Source: Desulfatibacillum alkenivorans DSM 16219
GTDB taxonomy: Bacteria; Desulfobacterota; Desulfobacteria; Desulfobacterales; Desulfatibacillaceae
NCBI RefSeq assembly: GCF_900142135.1
Contig: NZ_FQZU01000006.1
Span: 124,001-188,000, forward strand
DNA length: 64,000 bases
Reading direction: 5' to 3'
Below are positions 52,286-62,418 of the stretch, piece by piece. The position numbers were made by a program, and so were the translations under genes. Under the pieces are notes generated by a model. It made no database searches and had not been told where the DNA came from. It saw nothing but the letters and a program-made list of their open reading frames with translations. The stretch's first letter is position 1; each line of letters opens with the position of its first letter.

Positions 52286-53106
52286 GCGGCCGGGAAAGGC
52301 CCCATCGCTAAATGGCTGCCGCGAATTGAGGCTTATCTTTGGAAAGGGCGGCCCAGGCATGCAATGCCTGGGGCCGGAGGCCAAAAGGCGCGGCCGGGAA
52401 AGGTTTTCGAAATTGAGGAAAGGCCGGCGGGCGGCAGCCTCCGGTTGGAGCCTCGTTCCCATGCTTCGCGTGGGAACGCATATGGAAGCATCTGAAATCT
52501 ATATATTTCCATCAATGACCAAACTTCAGGAAGTCCTTTACCGCTATCAACACAATGTAGCCGCGCCCCCCTGTGGGCGCCTTTTGGAACGCGCGTTGCG
52601 CGTCCTTGCAGGCACAGGGGCCTGCGCTACACCGCCAGACCAAAGCCATCGCCTGCTTATATCTCCTTCGATATTACCGGCCAGTTGCGGCAGGCAACGC
52701 CGGGGGCCGAAAGGCCGATAAGTGCGGCCGTGAAAGGCCCCATCGCTAAATGGCTGCCGCGAACCGAGGCTTATCTTAGGAAAGGGCGGCCCAGGCATGC
52801 AATGCCTGGGGCCGGAGGCCAAAAGGCGCGGCCGGGAAAGGTTTTCGAAATTGAGGAAAGGCCGGCGGGCGGCAGCCTCCGGTTGGAGCCTCGTTCCCAT
52901 GCTTCGCGTGGGAACGCATATGGAAGTATCTGAAATCTATATATTTCCATCAATGACCAAACTTCAGGAAGTCCTTTGCCGCTATCAACACAATGTAGCC
53001 GCGCCCCCCTGTGGGCGCCTTTTGGAACGCGCGTTGCGCGTCCTTGCAGGCACAGGGGCCTGCGCTACACCGCCAGACCAAAGCCATCGCCTGCTTATAT
53101 CTCCTT
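52286..53106. repeat. 438-bp-period tandem duplication of a composite repeat
   Basis: A ~383-bp sequence at 52286-52668 is repeated with few changes at 52724-53106. Each copy carries, in order, a CCCAGGCATGCAATGCCTGGG hairpin, a CGGCGGGCGGCAGCC segment, a type C hairpin (52454-52478; 52892-52916) and a GTAG...CTAC REPIN (52557-52630; 52995-53068). The composite order matches that at 48541-48720. Short open frames in it are repeat artefacts. Confidence 0.9.
52557..52630. repeat. Paired GTAG/CTAC REPIN-like element (copy in duplication unit 1)
   Basis: GTAG, stem GCGCCC/GGGCGC with loop CCCTGT, a middle GGAACGCGCG stem, then an inverted unit GCAGGC/GCCTGC with loop ACAGGG and CTAC at 52627-52630. 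The second copy is at 52995-53068. Confidence 0.7.
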
Positions 53107-53318: not shown

Positions 53319-54830
53319 ATGAATCAGGAACTGTCCTGCCTGCACGATATAGCAATAGCCCTGTCCGAATCCGATCTTCGGCCCTCCTTGTACAAAGCCC
53401 TGGAACTTCTCTCCACGTCCATGAAAATGGATCGCGGAGCAATCACCATAATGAACCCGGTGCAGCATGAAATCCGCATCGAGGCGGCCCACGGCATGTC
53501 CGCCGGCGCCATCCAAAAGGGAAGATACAAACCCGGCGAAGGCATCACGGGCCGGGTGATTCAAAGCGGCAAGCCCACCATTGTCCCGAAAACCAGTCAG
53601 GAGCCCTTGTTTTTGGACAAGACCGGGCATCGAAAAACGGACGACGTGGAATACTCCTTTATTTGCGTGCCCATCACCAAGGGCAAGCAGGTGGTGGGGT
53701 GTTTGTGGGTGGACAGGCCCTATGACCCGGAGTACAACCTGGACAACGCGCTCCAGGTGCTGACCATTATTGCGGCCATGGTGGCCCAGAGGGTGGCCAG
53801 CCTGGAGACCCTCCAATGGGAAAAGGAAGCCCATAAGGAGGAAAGCCGCCGCCTGCGCCAGGAATTGGGGCAGCGGTACAGCATCACCAACCTGGTGGGC
53901 AACAGCAACAAAATGCGGGAGGTCTTTCAGATGATCTCCCAGGTTTGCAAGAGCAACGCAACCGTGCTGATTCGCGGCGAGTCCGGCACAGGCAAGGAGC
54001 TGGCTGCCACCGCCATCCACTATAACAGCCCACGGGCGGACAAGCCCTTCGTCAAGGTGAATTGTGCGGCCCTGCCTTCCAACCTGATCGAGAGCGAGCT
54101 TTTCGGTCACGAAAAAGGCGCGTTTACGGGCGCTATCCGGCAAAAGCCCGGCAAGTTCGAGCTGGCCAGCAAGGGCACCATATTCCTGGATGAAATCGGT
54201 TCCATCAACCTGGACGTCCAGGCCAACCTTTTGCGGGTTTTGCAGGAAAAGGAATTCGAACGGGTGGGCGGCATCAAGACCCTCAAGGCGGACGTTCGCG
54301 TCATAGCCGCCACCAACCGGAACCTGGAGCGCGCAGTGGAGGACGGCAGTTTTCGGGAGGATTTGTACTACCGCCTGAACGTTTTTCCCATTTACATGCC
54401 GCCCTTGCGCCAGCGCAAGACCGACATCCTGCTTTTGGCCGAGTATTTTGTGGAAAAGTACTCCAAGGAAAACAGCAAGGAAATCCGCCGGCTTTCCAGC
54501 CCGGCCATAGACATGCTCATGCAATACCACTGGCCCGGCAACGTGCGCGAGTTGGAAAACTGCATCGAACGGGCCGTGGTTCTGTGCGACTCCGGCGTCA
54601 TTCACGCCTTCCATTTGCCGCCCTCCCTGCAGACGGCGGAAGAGTCGGACACCTGGCCGGGCCGCGGCCTGGACGAAGCCGTGGAGGCCTTGGAGCGGGA
54701 AATGATTGTCGATGCGCTGAAAAGCACCCGGGGCAATACGGGCAAGGCCGCTGAGATTCTCAAGTCCACCCCCCGGAAAATCGGGTACAAGGCCCACAAA
54801 TATCAGATCAATTACAAGGACTTCCGCTAG
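53319..54830 (+). CDS. Sigma-54-dependent activator with GAF domain (NifA-like)
   Basis: A 503-residue enhancer-binding protein. An N-terminal GAF domain (~15-170: [42 protein letters not shown]) precedes a sigma-54 AAA+ domain (~190-425) with [23 protein letters not shown] and the Walker [11 protein letters not shown] Fis-type helix-turn-helix follows at the C-terminus ([23 protein letters not shown]). The GAF domain may bind a small ligand. Organisation recalls NifA, but no nif genes are here. It lies just ahead of the kinase/regulator pair. Confidence 0.92.
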
Positions 54831-54883: not shown

Positions 54884-56368
54884 ATGAGTTCCAAAAACGG
54901 GAACAGCAACCATTCAGATCAGCATTCCCGGCTCCAAGGGCGCTCCGCCGCCAGCCTGACGGTCAAGCCCGTCAGGCTGGTGCAAAACTTCACCTCCCTG
55001 AGCCTGGCCGTGATTTTTCTGGCCACCCTTATCCTGTCCATGGTCCTGACCCAGAACGCCCGGACCGTGCTCATGCAGAAAAACCAGGAATACGCCGCAC
55101 TCATCGCCAACAACCTCAACCATCAGGTGTTTTGGCAGTACGTCTATCCCACGGTCAAACAATTCGGCAGGATCAACCTGTACAACGAGCCTGAGTTCGA
55201 CCTCCTGGACAGCGTGGTGCGCCACACCCTCCACGGCTTTAACGTGGACGTGGTCAATATTTATAACGAGGAAAATCAGGTTCTGTACAGCTTCGACCCG
55301 GACCTGATCGGAAAAAAGGTCACCCTGGGCCGGGAATACAACATGGCCCTGAAGGACGTTTCCAGCTCCAAGCTCCTCCAAACCGGTTCCGGCTGGGGCA
55401 TTTGGCTGGGAAGGCCCGAAAGCACCATTTTAAAAACCTATTCTCCGTTTTGCATCAGGCATCCTGAAACGGAGGAAATGATCAAAATTTACGGCGTGTT
55501 TGAGATCGGAATCGACCTCTCCAACGACTACAGAACCATCTTCAACTTCCAGCTCATGGTGGTGGGCGTGTCGGCCACCGTCATGCTCCTGCTGTTTTTG
55601 GTGCTCCGTTTTTACGTGGGACGCGGCGAGGATTTCCTGCTGCAAAGAGCCGAGGAGCGCCTTAAGCTCGAAGAGCAATTGAGCCGCGCCGAACGCCTGG
55701 CCTCCCTGGGCGAAATGGCTGCGGGCGTGTCCCATGAAATCCGGAACCCCCTGGGAATCATTCGAAGCTCGGCCGAACTCCTGGGCAAACGCTATGACGG
55801 CCCCAACAGGCAATTGCTGGAAGTCATTATTGAAGAATCCACGCGATTAAACGACATCATCACGGATTTTCTCAACTTCGCCCGCCCCACCGAGCCCCGG
55901 TTTCAGGAATGCAGCGTGGCGGGCGTGCTTGGAAAAAACCTGGCTTTCCTGGCCCCAAGGCTCAATCAGGACGGATACCGCGTGGAGCAAGAGGCGCCTT
56001 CCGGCCTGCCCATGGTCTGGGCCGATCCCAATCTGTTGTATCAGTCCTTTTTGAATATCCTGATCAACGCCATGCAGGCCATGCCGGCAGGCGGAACCGT
56101 GCACGTCAAAACCCGGATCCAAGGGGAAAAGCTCTCCGTCAGCTTTACGGATGAGGGCAAAGGGGTGACGGACGAGGCCATGAAAAAAATCTGGAATCCC
56201 TTTTTCACCACCAAGGAAAGAGGTACCGGATTGGGCTTGTGTGTGGTACGGAATATTATTGAGGCTCATGGTGGAAGCGTGGCCATAGAAAACTCCGAAG
56301 ACAAGGGCGCCTGCGTCCGGGTGGAACTCCCCATAGGAACACATGATGGAAACGATTCTGATAGTTGA
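54884..56368 (+). CDS. Sensor histidine kinase (NtrB/ZraS-like)
   Basis: A 494-residue membrane kinase. A first membrane helix (~41-62) and a second (~222-245) flank a periplasmic sensor. The HisKA domain carries MAAGVSHEIRNPLGII and the HATPase has NILINAMQAM, DEGKGV and FFTTKERGTGLGLCVV. It overlaps the response-regulator gene by 26 bases, so the two form a pair. The signal is unknown. Confidence 0.9.
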   Translation: MSSKNGNSNHSDQHSRLQGRSAASLTVKPVRLVQNFTSLSLAVIFLATLILSMVLTQNARTVLMQKNQEYAALIANNLNHQVFWQYVYPTVKQFGRINLYNEPEFDLLDSVVRHTLHGFNVDVVNIYNEENQVLYSFDPDLIGKKVTLGREYNMALKDVSSSKLLQTGSGWGIWLGRPESTILKTYSPFCIRHPETEEMIKIYGVFEIGIDLSNDYRTIFNFQLMVVGVSATVMLLLFLVLRFYVGRGEDFLLQRAEERLKLEEQLSRAERLASLGEMAAGVSHEIRNPLGIIRSSAELLGKRYDGPNRQLLEVIIEESTRLNDIITDFLNFARPTEPRFQECSVAGVLGKNLAFLAPRLNQDGYRVEQEAPSGLPMVWADPNLLYQSFLNILINAMQAMPAGGTVHVKTRIQGEKLSVSFTDEGKGVTDEAMKKIWNPFFTTKERGTGLGLCVVRNIIEAHGGSVAIENSEDKGACVRVELPIGTHDGNDSDS

Positions 56369-57728
56369 CGACGAAAAAAACTACCCCCCGCTTCTGGCCG
56401 CCGTTTTAGGCGACGAAGGATACGAAACCCTGACGGCCAACAGCGGCTTGGAGGCTATCCACATCCTGGAAGGCTCGGACGTGGACCTGGTCCTCACCGA
56501 CATGAAAATGCCGGGCATGGACGGCATGGAGCTCATGGAGCGCATCAAGACCCGGGACCCGGACCTGCCGGTCCTCATGATGACCGCCTACGGCACCGTG
56601 GATATGGGCATGGCCGCCATGGAGAAAGGCGCCTATTCCTACATCTGGAAGCCTTTTCAGAACGAGCAGCTTATCCTCTTCGTCAAACAGGCTCTGGCCA
56701 TGTACCGGGTGGTCCAGGAAAACCGCCTGCTTAAGAATCAACTGGGCGACAGATACTCCTTTGGAAACATCATCGGAAAAAGCCCGGCCATGATCAATAT
56801 CTTCGACACCATCGTCAAAGTGGCGCCCACCAACGCCACCGTCCTCATCCAGGGAGAGTCCGGCACAGGCAAGGAAATGGTGGCCAAGTCCATCCATTTC
56901 AACTCCCATCGCAAAGACGCGCCCTGGGTGGCGGTCAACTGCGCCGCCCTGGCGGAATCCATCCTGGAAAGCGAACTCTTCGGCCATGAAAAAGGCGCCT
57001 TCACCGGCGCGGCGGCCATGAAAAAAGGCCGTTTTGAACTGGCGGACGGCGGCACCCTGTTTCTGGACGAAATCGGCGAAATCTCCTCCGCGCTTCAGGT
57101 TAAGCTCCTGCGCGTTCTCCAGGAAAAAACCTTTGAAAGGGTGGGCGGGGTCAAACCCATCGAGGTGGACATCCGCCTTATCGCCGCAACCAACCGGGAC
57201 CTGAAAAAGGAAGTGGAAAAAAGCGCCTTCCGCGAAGACCTGTTCTATCGCCTCAACGTCCTGCCCATCCAGCTTCCGCCCTTGAGGGAACGCCAAAAAG
57301 ACATCCCCCTCCTGGTGGACCACTTCTTGCAAAAATACGCCGCAGGCCCCGGCGGCGAATCCAGGGTAAGAAGGGTGCTCCCGGACGTACACAGGCTGTT
57401 CCAGGAATACGCTTGGCCCGGCAACGTGCGCGAACTGGAAAACGTCATCGAGCGGGCCATCATCCTGTGCAATTCCGACGCCATTTCCGTGAACGACCTG
57501 CCCAGGGAGCTGACCCGCAGCGTGTCCAACACCCTGCACATGGAAGGCATCCCCGCGGACGCCACCCTGTACGAAACCCTGTCCATGGTGGAACAGGCCA
57601 TGATCAAACGGGCCATGCTCATGTCGGACAACGTGCAGTCCCACGCCGCCCAGATTCTGGGAATCGGGAAAAGCGGCCTGAATCAGAAGATCAAAAAGTT
57701 CGGCCTGGACTTTGGTTTAAAAAGTTGA
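56343..57728 (+). CDS. Sigma-54-dependent response regulator (NtrC/ZraR-like)
   Basis: A 461-residue regulator. A receiver domain (phospho-Asp in LVLTDMKMPGMDG, residue ~53) is joined to a sigma-54 AAA+ domain with GESGTGKE and [10 protein letters not shown], and a C-terminal Fis helix-turn-helix (VQSHAAQILGIGKSGLNQKIKKFG). It starts within the kinase gene. A sigma-54-like promoter ~295 bases after its stop (58024) is a nearby candidate target. Confidence 0.93.
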   Translation: MMETILIVDDEKNYPPLLAAVLGDEGYETLTANSGLEAIHILEGSDVDLVLTDMKMPGMDGMELMERIKTRDPDLPVLMMTAYGTVDMGMAAMEKGAYSYIWKPFQNEQLILFVKQALAMYRVVQENRLLKNQLGDRYSFGNIIGKSPAMINIFDTIVKVAPTNATVLIQGESGTGKEMVAKSIHFNSHRKDAPWVAVNCAALAESILESELFGHEKGAFTGAAAMKKGRFELADGGTLFLDEIGEISSALQVKLLRVLQEKTFERVGGVKPIEVDIRLIAATNRDLKKEVEKSAFREDLFYRLNVLPIQLPPLRERQKDIPLLVDHFLQKYAAGPGGESRVRRVLPDVHRLFQEYAWPGNVRELENVIERAIILCNSDAISVNDLPRELTRSVSNTLHMEGIPADATLYETLSMVEQAMIKRAMLMSDNVQSHAAQILGIGKSGLNQKIKKFGLDFGLKS

Positions 57729-58023
57729 ATTCCAAAATACCTTATAAATCTAGTGTTTTATTCAAGCTGGAAGAGCCCTTGAATTTTTGGTTCAAAATTT
57801 TGAACCCGGCTGTTTTTGAGGATTATCTTATAAAATCAAAACGTTACTGTTTTCGGCCGATTTCGGGTTCATAAATGCGAACGCAGGGGCCTGAAAAAGG
57901 GCTTTTGCAAGGGCGATTCAACAGAGGCTTTACTAGGGGATTGAAAAATTTTAAATAATTTTTTGGTTTAATTTAAGATAGTTGCGTTTGTGTAGGGAGG
58001 AAAGAGTAAGAAAAAATTCTATT
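57729..58023. other. A/T-rich intergenic region before the candidate sRNA
   Basis: About 295 bases, A/T-rich near 57945-58000. No gene or known repeat is seen. An upstream activator site for the adjacent sigma-54 regulators may lie here but I cannot point to one palindrome. Confidence 0.4.
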
Positions 58024-58039
58024 TGGCAAGGTGCTTGCA
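58024..58039 (+). promoter_or_regulatory. Sigma-54 (-24/-12) promoter
   Basis: TGGCAAGGTGCTTGCA fits the sigma-54 consensus TGGCAC-N5-TTGCW with one change (A for C at position 6). GG and GC are 10 bases apart as required. Predicted start ~58050. Confidence 0.6.
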
Positions 58040-58049
58040 ATTACTCAGG

Positions 58050-58133
58050 TCAAACGGAAAAAAACATCCGTTTTCCTCCTTTTTCCTCTTTATAAAGGCC
58101 GACCGCATAAAATGCGGTCGGCCTTTATAATTG
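58050..58133 (+). ncRNA. Candidate sigma-54-driven small RNA
   Basis: The predicted ~84-nt transcript has a hairpin AAACGGA/TCCGTTT (58052-58073), then a pyrimidine-rich single strand TTTCCTCCTTTTTCCTC that resembles an anti-Shine-Dalgarno. It ends with an 18-bp perfect terminator-type stem (58091-58128, loop AAA). No start codon with ribosome site is present. It is placed directly after three sigma-54 regulator genes. Confidence 0.55.
58091..58128. terminator. Long perfect hairpin, bidirectional terminator
   Basis: An 18-bp perfect stem (arm begins TATAAAGGCCGACC) with loop AAA. It can end the candidate sRNA on the plus strand and the TPR gene (stop at 58148) on the minus strand. Confidence 0.75.
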
Positions 58134-58147
58134 TGGGGCCGAAAATA

Positions 58148-58849
58148 TCAGCTTGCGGAGGCGGCCAGCTTTTCCTTGACCATCTGGGCGTAAGCGGAGC
58201 CCGGATAGTCGGCTGCAAATTTCTCGTAGGCCTGAACGCTCTTGCCGGCGTCGCCCTTGACTTCGTAAATGCGGGCCACGGCCAGGGCGGCTTCTTCCTT
58301 GCCCAATCCCATTTTGACGGCCAAAACCTTGTTGTACATTTCCAGGGCCTTGTCGTAGTCCGCCTTTTGTTCATAAGCGTAGCCGAGCCCCAAAAGCGCC
58401 CTGCTGCTTTCAATGGGATCTCCGGAAAGGGCTTTCAGGCTCTTGTTCCACCATTCAATGGCTTCGTCGTAGTCGCCTGCGTCATAGGCGGTCTGGCCCA
58501 CCATGAGCGTGGCCAGCTTGCCGGCGTCCGTCCCGGAGTATTCCTGGGCCACGTTCTTGAAATCCTCGTTGACGGCTACAGCCGCTTGCTTGGCGTCCGA
58601 ACTGGTGGTCATGATGCCGGCGTATTTAGCCTGGGCGGCGGAAAACATGGTGGACGCCTTGCTTTCGGTCCGGGCGGAAAACACGGTCCAGCCCGAAATG
58701 ATGACGACAAGCAGCGCCACAATAACGCCCGCTGTGTACAGTTCCTTTTCATGGTCCCGGCACCAATTGACCACCTTCCCGGTCATGGTGATGAATTCAT
58801 CGGGCTCGTTCAACAGTTCCTTGCGTGAGATGCGTTTTGCGTTTGCCAT
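58148..58849 (-). CDS. Membrane-anchored TPR protein (YfgM-like)
   Basis: A 233-residue protein with a cytoplasmic N-terminus, one membrane helix (LYTAGVIVALLVVIISGWTVF) and TPR units (AGDYDEAIEWWNKSLKAL, QKADYDKALEMYNKVLAV, GDAGKSVQAYEKFAADYPGS). The layout matches YfgM, which assists Sec-exported proteins with chaperones. It is the last gene of a minus-strand run, 107 bases after the PfkB gene. Confidence 0.75.
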   Translation of the reverse strand: MANAKRISRKELLNEPDEFITMTGKVVNWCRDHEKELYTAGVIVALLVVIISGWTVFSARTESKASTMFSAAQAKYAGIMTTSSDAKQAAVAVNEDFKNVAQEYSGTDAGKLATLMVGQTAYDAGDYDEAIEWWNKSLKALSGDPIESSRALLGLGYAYEQKADYDKALEMYNKVLAVKMGLGKEEAALAVARIYEVKGDAGKSVQAYEKFAADYPGSAYAQMVKEKLAASAS

Positions 58850-58955
58850 TCTTTCCGTCCGCGTTGTGAGAAATAGGTTAATGGGATCTTAAACGGTTTA
58901 TTGGCCCGATGGTCTGCTGGTCAGGCCAGTAGCCCAGTTGGCCCCTGTATAATCG

Positions 58956-61280: not shown

Positions 61281-61443
61281 AATATGCTCCCTCATTATCT
61301 CATTGCATGTCATTTTCTTCATTTTTGTTAAGCGGTGTTTACTTCATTATGGGTAAGGCATCTGTGAATACCAATAACTATAGGGGTGAATAGAGTAAAC
61401 TAAGTGTTTGACATATGATTTTTTTTATGAAATATTTTCATGT

Positions 61444-62418
61444 ATGAGCAGGCCTTTAAGGATAGAATTCCCGGGCGCCTGGTATCATGTCCTGAACCGG
61501 GGGCGCAGAAAGGAGTCTGTTTTTCTCCAGGATGGCGATTACGCCGGTTTTCTGGATTTGTTGGCGAAATCGTCTGAAATGTGGGACGTGGACGTCTGCG
61601 CCTACTGCCTCATGCCAAATCATTATCACCTGTTGATCCGCACGCCGCAAGGAAACCTTTCCCGCTTCATGCGCCATGTCGGGGCGGTGTACACCCAAGG
61701 CTTCAATGCAGTTCATGGGACTGACGGCTCATTGTTCCGGGGCCGGTACAAGGCCATATTGGTTTCCGGCGACTCCTATTTGAAAGAATTGGTCCGCTAT
61801 ATCCATCGCAACCCCCTGGAGGCGGGGCTGGCCAGAATTCCTGGGGACTACCCGTACAGCAGCTACAATGCTTATCTTTCCAGAGCCAAAAAGTGGGAAT
61901 GGCTGAGCACAAAATTGATTCTGGCTCTATTTTCCAAGGATCCGGTCCGGGCCAAGGCAGCTTTTAAACGCTTTGTCAGCAGCGAGTCTCCGAAAAAAAT
62001 CAGCCAAATTTTTTCCGCTCCCAGCCTGCCGTTTGCTTTGGGGCCGGAGAGTTTTATGGAATGGATTAAAAAATCCTTTGGCATGGAAAAACAGCACCCC
62101 GAGGTTCGGCAGTCCAGGGCCTTAAGGCCGGATCCCGAATCCGTCATGGACGCTGTATGCAGAATTTATAATGTAGATGAAGCAGCTTTGCAAAAAGTGC
62201 AAAGGGGGCGATTTAACGAACCTCGCATGGCGGCGATTTACCTCATGCGCACCCTGACCATGAGGCCGCTGGACGATGTGGGCAGTCATTTTCAACTGAC
62301 CAGAAGCAGCTCGGTAAGCTCCGCCGCGGCCAGTGCAGAGGCTCGCATGCAGCAGGATCCCGCCATGAGAAAAAGGGTGGAAGCCGCACGCGCCCAAGTT
62401 CTCAAACGTCAAACGTAG
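61444..62418 (+). CDS. REP-associated tyrosine transposase (RAYT)
   Basis: About 324 residues from the ATG at 61444 (MSRPLRIEFPGAWYHVLNRG). The HUH Y1 transposase core has the metal motif NHYHLLIRTP and a GSLFRGRYKAILV ... ELVRYIHRNPLEAGL segment with the candidate catalytic Tyr. A C-terminal domain with a DnaA-C-like helix-turn-helix (MAAIYLMRTLTMRPLDDVGSHFQLTRSSS) follows. It ends LKRQT with the stop codon inside the right REP. It nicks and joins single-stranded REP DNA. A start farther upstream (61408) has no ribosome site. Confidence 0.9.
   Translation: MSRPLRIEFPGAWYHVLNRGRRKESVFLQDGDYAGFLDLLAKSSEMWDVDVCAYCLMPNHYHLLIRTPQGNLSRFMRHVGAVYTQGFNAVHGTDGSLFRGRYKAILVSGDSYLKELVRYIHRNPLEAGLARIPGDYPYSSYNAYLSRAKKWEWLSTKLILALFSKDPVRAKAAFKRFVSSESPKKISQIFSAPSLPFALGPESFMEWIKKSFGMEKQHPEVRQSRALRPDPESVMDAVCRIYNVDEAALQKVQRGRFNEPRMAAIYLMRTLTMRPLDDVGSHFQLTRSSSVSSAAASAEARMQQDPAMRKRVEAARAQVLKRQT

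Follow-up and report, generated by a model that had tools for sequence, protein, structure and literature searches.

Does the interval between an NtrC-like response regulator gene and a convergent TPR protein gene of Desulfatibacillum alkenivorans encode a sigma-54-dependent small RNA and, if so, what would such an RNA control? We addressed this question in a window of 64,000 nucleotides (the whole stretch of DNA analysed), corresponding to positions 124001-188000 of contig C33 in a host genome of 6.47 Mb distributed over 102 contigs. The explanation that we consider probable as a whole is that the locus encodes a porin-repressing, trans-acting sigma-54 small RNA driven by the adjacent kinase/regulator pair. 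Specifically, the kinase (54884-56368) would phosphorylate the NtrC-like regulator (56343-57728), which would bind both enhancers, at 57790 and at 57867, and activate the sigma-54 polymerase at 58024-58039. The region 58050-58133 would then be transcribed as a trans-acting RNA whose 3′ end is formed by the hairpin 58090-58130, and its CAUCCGUUUUCCUCCUUU stretch would pair with the mRNAs of outer-membrane porins across the Shine-Dalgarno (SD) sequence and the start codon. Since the RNA would block porin translation, we propose that the input signal to the kinase lowers porin synthesis. The features involved and their neighbours were as follows.

53319-54830, plus strand: NifA-like GAF / sigma-54-activator gene (Pfam), a neighbour only, outside the conserved unit
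54884-56368, plus strand: histidine kinase gene (HisKA, HATPase_c; Pfam)
56343-57728, plus strand: NtrC-like response regulator gene with receiver, sigma-54 activator and HTH_8 domains (Pfam), the presumed activator of the RNA
57790-57805, no strand assigned: putative enhancer 1, the exact palindrome GTTCAAAATTTTGAAC, also present upstream of RNAs in relatives
57867-57882, no strand assigned: putative enhancer 2, the degenerate copy GTTCATAAATGCGAAC; several relatives likewise have a second site
58024-58039, plus strand: -24/-12 (sigma-54) promoter TGGCAAGGTGCTTGCA, a sequence match conserved in relatives
58050-58133, plus strand: predicted small RNA (fold; counterparts in relatives), presumably starting at about 58050 and ending in the T-rich tail
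58052-58073, plus strand: 5′ hairpin (fold), absent from the consensus structure of 25 relatives
58065-58082, plus strand: anti-RBS stretch CATCCGTTTTCCTCCTTT, the complement of AAAGGAGGAAAACGGATG, with a conserved UUUYCUCC core
58090-58130, no strand assigned: terminator hairpin of 19 bp with a 3-nt loop (58090-58108 / 58112-58130; fold)
58148-58849, minus strand: convergent TPR protein gene (Pfam; synteny in L217 and L221), a neighbour with no role in the mechanism

The -24/-12 promoter put forward in the initial annotation was present at 58024-58039, and it is conservation in relatives that raises it above chance. In the window alone, the pattern TGGCAN6TTGCW matched once against 0.46 matches expected and 38 of 100 shuffles had a match; as this was not significant by itself, the comparison among relatives had to decide. 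No sigma-70-type promoter was found in 57700-58900. Assuming the usual sigma-54 geometry, we expected +1 at about 58050. The RNA 58050-58140 folded with -42.3 kcal/mol (z = -8.6; 0 of 200 shuffles as good), and the leader alone (58050-58092) formed the one hairpin that had been described, at 58052-58073 (z = -3.07; 1 of 200 shuffles as good). The anti-SD stretch, initially given as exposed, was so in part: UCCUCCUUUUUCCUCUU, 3′ of the leader hairpin, was unpaired in the predicted fold, whereas the first U residues of the stretch lay inside the stem. The terminator stem measured 19 bp, with its 3-nt loop, rather than the 18 bp first stated. The T-run of the window sits in the base of this stem and a simple terminator scan did not list the hairpin 58090-58130, which can terminate both strands, that is, the RNA and the convergent TPR gene. 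The statement that no open reading frame follows needed qualification, as a mechanical GTG frame (58031-58828, 265 aa) runs through the RNA; this frame is antisense to the TPR gene. Within the host genome, the joint promoter and TTTYCTCC pattern matched once, and a similarity search returned no further RNA copies (the terminator matched itself inverted, and the next hit had an E-value of 0.41).

The genes upstream also differed from their first description. Three sigma-54 regulator genes had been counted, but the Pfam domains of the middle one (54884-56368) are those of a histidine kinase and not of a sigma-54 regulator. Matches to the NifA-like gene were confined to the shared activator part in the 22 loci searched; this gene not being conserved, a three-gene regulator unit was dropped, and the unit consists of the kinase and the NtrC-like regulator only. 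Of the 59 genomes searched, 50 (the host genome among them) contained a match to the response regulator over almost its full length with 54% identity or more, and the remaining matches showed 51% identity or less, except for a partial one of 73% in G012. The kinase orthologue adjoins the regulator in relatives (L217 and L221, 45-46%), where the TPR and pfkB genes downstream constitute a conserved neighbourhood. Outside the order Desulfobacterales, in the same phylum, the succession kinase, regulator, RNA was kept at L297, L299, L300 and L301, with kinases 38-43% identical to that of the window, and regulator and RNA were kept at L298, where the contig starts. Across L297-L301, the regulators were 55-58% identical to that of the window and the RNA promoter was located about 195 nt past the regulator. 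The window additionally contains a 300-nt direct repeat (52286-52585 and 52724-53023, 98% identity) immediately preceding the NifA-like gene, and a gene (61408-62418, plus strand) whose product combines a Y1_Tnp (IS200-like) transposase domain with one of the DnaA C-terminal type (Pfam).

The initial annotation had staked its proposal on the conservation of the -24/-12 element and the stem, and promoter, enhancer and terminator clearly recur in relatives. Thirty regulator orthologue loci were fetched, and L012, L013 and L027 were left out for having too little downstream DNA. At 15 of the 27 testable orthologues, the promoter-stem pair was found downstream of the regulator, as a -24/-12 element with a short, CU-rich anti-SD RNA and a terminator behind it; these loci carry 16 RNAs, two of them in tandem at L016, and the other 12 orthologues had no RNA next door. 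On a larger scale, 242 genomes from the order were searched for the promoter plus TTTYCTCC pattern. It occurred in 117 of them, a figure that includes some chance matches or another RNA class, while the reversed pattern occurred in 5. In a phylum-wide sample, the same joint pattern was present in 51 of 247 genomes and its control in 11 of 247. A second control, with the 3′ motif reversed as CCTCYTTT (69 of 242 genomes), was set aside as a poor one because the true RNAs contain CCTCCTTT, and we relied on the reversed pattern and on shuffles instead. When 25 RNAs of common layout were compared (chosen by us on RNA motif and layout out of 58 loci), all 12 consensus terminator pairs showed compensatory changes.

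RNA copies unlinked to the regulator also exist, with up to four per genome (four in G169, three each in G079 and G210). The L327 RNA (G035) lies on a different contig from the regulator and the L330 RNA (G043) about 190 kb from it. Extra copies that the first pattern had missed, each with its own -24/-12 element, were seen at L258 (G051:C23), where the enhancer is present too, and at L268 (G050:C22). Among the 57 of 80 named regulator records that were examined for an adjacent RNA, L131, L143 and L144 carried one, and the other few pattern matches looked coding or due to chance. No RNA was detected beside the regulator in Desulfobulbus-, Electrothrix- and Desulfacinum-type records, nor was such an RNA found at five Desulfovibrionaceae-type regulator loci (46-50% identity range), and the exact 26-mer gave no match in viral contigs.

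The palindrome upstream of the promoter connects the RNA to the regulator. The exact 18-bp enhancer GGTTCAAAATTTTGAACC occurs once in the whole genome, at this locus; with 3 mismatches it appeared at three other genomic places, and the reversed pattern at one. We then considered 58 loci, leaving out those with less than 200 nt upstream as well as repeated RNAs, and counting class B (6 loci) apart. An enhancer with 3 or fewer mismatches was present within 330 nt upstream of the -24 box in 35 of them, compared with 6 of 1160 shuffles. A terminator was found in 46 of these loci, both elements in 33 and neither in 10, which look like chance hits. With the enhancer criterion unchanged, 20 fresh loci that we chose on the RNA motif and layout gave an enhancer in 18 (shuffles, 4 of 1000) and a terminator in all 20. 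Other lineages have other palindromes, TTTCCAAATGGAAA-like at L030 and L033 and GTAC...GTAC-like at L050, L051, L052 and L297-L299. Similarly, the recognition helix of the regulator differed: GTTC enhancers were accompanied by K-S-G-L-[NS]-[QW]-K, TTTCC enhancers by SGLSKK or SGFNKK, and GTAC enhancers by SL[IM]QHK or NNLHYR, while L049 (f42) had a GTAC-type helix and both enhancer types nearby. Since the recognition helix changes where the enhancer changes, the regulator is tied to the enhancer, and the conserved palindrome is its predicted binding site, judged by sequence only. Regulators of the order without an adjacent RNA (the 12 orthologue loci and L132) retain the common helix, which is consistent with an RNA elsewhere in the genome, as in G035 and G023; for most regulators without an adjacent RNA, none was found elsewhere either. 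Altogether, conservation strongly supports the predicted sigma-54-dependent small RNA and its control by the adjacent NtrC-like regulator.

We next consider what the RNA may target. The reverse complement of its conserved core, AAGGAGGAAAACAGATGAAGAAA, corresponds to a ribosome-binding site and start codon. The complementarity of the CU-rich stretch to SD sequences that had first been pointed out stood, and target prediction sharpened it to porin starts, best in relatives and only moderately in the host genome. There, the best non-self matches of the 18-mer were porin 2 (a 490-aa outer-membrane-type protein) and a 119-aa ORF, with 2 mismatches each. Porin 3 (492 aa) was among 19 matches with 3 mismatches, as was a PstS-like binding protein; the total, counting self, was 22 matches, and the reversed pattern gave 6. 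Three porin-like genes lie in tandem on C8, at 35707, 37941 and 40303, and they are homologous to the G031 protein discussed below (44% identity to porin 3, E 3.9e-58); the host porin scanned had no Pfam match, and porin 2 (L121) did not match NCBIfam DESULF_POR1. When duplexes were compared with those of 405 control genes of the host genome, each allowed the best of up to 8 starts, 6, 25 and 64 controls paired as well as porins 2, 3 and 1, respectively; with best-SD starts, these numbers were 3, 13 and 35. Porin targeting in the host genome is thus moderately supported.

In relatives, the predicted complementarity to porin starts was strong. A 27-mer spanning the SD sequence, the start codon and the first codons was searched in 10 genomes, allowing 3 or fewer mismatches. 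A porin-type start was the sole non-RNA match in G031, G092, G128 and G175 (exact; these four belong to one genus, and the G092 contig stops after 81 codons) and in G033 (1 mismatch). G233 and G241 returned the RNA gene only, the match in G051 was another RNA gene, which has a promoter and enhancer of its own, and G071 and G050 gave no match. As for the nature of these proteins, L251 and L253, two further f24 members, scored above the Pfam Porin_4 cut-off, and the G031 porin matched DESULF_POR1 at E 6.3e-14, under the curated cut-off. DESULF_POR1 was detected in 9 of 10 porin family members, the scores seen being 19 to 51.5 bits where the cut-off is 250. The family had no sequence match in the PDB. 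A 23-mer search of 20 genomes gave non-RNA matches at 0-1 mismatch in G029, G234 and G016. In G029, the 23-mer occurred exactly at two divergent outer-membrane-type genes, one near the Porin_4 cut-off and the other without a family match, and the G234 match hit DESULF_POR1 weakly. The G016 match (L282, G016:C163:40769) was a DESULF_POR1-family homologue in which the usual ATG reads AGG and the ribosome-binding site is otherwise conserved, indicating either that an alternative start is used or that the assembly contains an error. In total, 14 of the 30 RNA-bearing genomes searched yielded the porin family. By eye, the f24 porin leaders (L261, L251, L253 and L256) also carry AAAATTATCAGG. This sequence is complementary to CCTGATAATTTT, which lies towards the 5′ end of the f24 RNA, and the two may form a second pairing site.

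The duplex energies of porin starts were compared with controls here as well. No control paired as well as the porin start in G031 (0 of 33), G033 (0 of 29), G051 (0 of 43) or G071 (0 of 12); in G001, 1 and 3 of 55 controls matched the porins, and in G005 the porins ranked poorly (6 to 12 of 26). In a competing explanation, to which we give an appreciable but clearly minor weight, the sigma-54-dependent anti-SD RNA has broad targets, namely mRNAs with a strong GGAGG, many with ATGAARAAA starts and mostly encoding exported proteins, the porins being just some of them. It would account for the host porins not being clearly the best partners among the controls, for the 23-mer matches at 2-3 mismatches, which comprised DnaK and SAICAR synthetase as well as, by eye, binding proteins and others, and for the several CCUCC blocks in the tandem RNAs of L016; the RNA core is also identical to the SD-binding sequence of 16S rRNA, which would fit the same explanation. 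Against it, the 27-mer in five relatives found porins only, besides RNA genes.

We think it improbable that a genuine, sigma-54-dependent RNA works in some other way, for example through protein binding or on non-porin mRNAs, with the likeness to porin starts reflecting common strong ribosome-binding sites. Four f46 genomes that keep the RNA had no target within 3 of 24 mismatches, and the preference of porins for their own RNA was weak, the best partner among 11 RNAs being that of the same genome in just 2 of 15 cases; yet exact 27-nt complements were restricted to porins in f24 genomes, and the duplex ranks were low in the four genomes with no equal control. Finally, the absence of any small RNA, with a chance -24/-12 match beside the terminator of the convergent TPR gene, appears highly improbable, for although the promoter match alone lacked significance and the hairpin is located between convergent genes, promoter, enhancer, anti-SD motif and terminator recur jointly, including at places not adjoining the TPR gene and in multiple copies, and a chance promoter was rejected on this conservation (117 against 5 of 242 genomes; enhancer at 35 of 58 and 18 of 20 loci).

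The porin-repressing small RNA consequently remains our preferred reading. No Hfq gene was found in the host genome (PF17209, 0 of 1), the same search being positive in 5 of 14 control genomes, which makes it likely that the RNA acts without Hfq or with another chaperone. If this reading is true, porins would be controlled by a circuit made of sigma-54, an NtrC-like regulator and a base-pairing RNA, apparently without Hfq; to our knowledge, these three components are not known together for porin control. It would suggest a function for the regulator-adjacent sigma-54 ncRNAs that are listed in Desulfovibrio without one, and it opens to experiment the question of how small RNAs work in bacteria with no recognisable Hfq. 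Given the conserved enhancer and the several RNA copies, the regulon can be read from sequence.

Other short RNAs behind sigma-54-type promoters were also observed. A second class (L211-L216, in G036, G038, G095, G122, G062 and G178) has a hairpin GGAATGAAG-loop with CCTCC-CTTCATTCC, followed by CACCTCC and a terminator whose loop is C-rich; these loci showed no exact GTTC enhancer, and a Flagellin_N protein gene is nearby in L211. Conserved ACCAGCTT-type short RNAs ending in CCTTTTCTCC lie behind a -24/-12 element at L302-L305 (G408, G431, G328 and G356), after a serine hydroxymethyltransferase gene (Pfam) at L302 and a similar ORF at L305, and two of these loci have GTAC- or GTTC-type palindromes upstream. 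A further conserved sigma-54-type RNA (L293-L296 and L306, in G422, G398, G466, G344 and G312) has AACC/CCTTTCCTCC and a GCTAACCGG-like terminator, with neither enhancer palindrome nor activator gene seen nearby. Tentatively, and with slightly less than even credence, we extend the reading to sigma-54-dependent, Hfq-independent anti-RBS RNAs as a class spread across the phylum, in which a dedicated kinase/regulator pair, a lineage-divergent enhancer code and 1-4 RNA copies would jointly shut down porins as the sigma-54 counterpart of the MicF/RybB envelope responses, and further classes, among them those near flagellin-like genes and those after serine hydroxymethyltransferase genes, would use the promoter-plus-CUCC design for other targets.

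A literature search at the level of titles and abstract openings found no published description of this RNA. The window had no gathering hit in Rfam 15, and eight loci examined at E-values up to 1 gave three hits, all under the gathering score: rli61 at L016 (28.4 of 50 bits), STnc560 (22.2 of 55) and Qrr (RF00378; 25.6 of 50, E 0.95), the latter on the opposite strand. In D. vulgaris, the regulators DVU0653 and DVU0679 have a sigma-54-dependent ncRNA downstream, that of DVU0679 being expressed on tiling arrays, and the passages of these papers on the two ncRNAs give no target or function (Rajeev 2011, PMC3333781; Kazakov 2015, PMC4641369). At the level of description, those loci share with ours, as predicted here, an NtrC-type response regulator directly followed by a sigma-54-dependent ncRNA. 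Regulator-driven sigma-54 RNAs include Qrr, GlmY and CrcZ. The initial annotation had compared the locus with GlmY (GlrR/GlrK), and the comparison holds for gene order, promoter type and the NtrC-like regulator but not for the predicted action, since GlmY acts through RapZ and GlmZ and pairing with a ribosome-binding site is predicted here. The Qrr RNAs of Vibrio (LuxO) share the NtrC-family regulator, the sigma-54 promoter, the regulatory RNA and its several copies in some genomes; they have quorum-sensing targets and depend on Hfq, for which no gene was found in the present genome. MicF, MicC, RybB and OmrA/B of enterobacteria repress porins from other promoter types and in an Hfq-dependent manner, and they share with our RNA the predicted pairing at the porin ribosome-binding site. 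The Qrr RNAs for the wiring and the porin-repressing RNAs for the target are closer than GlmY to the predicted action of this RNA.
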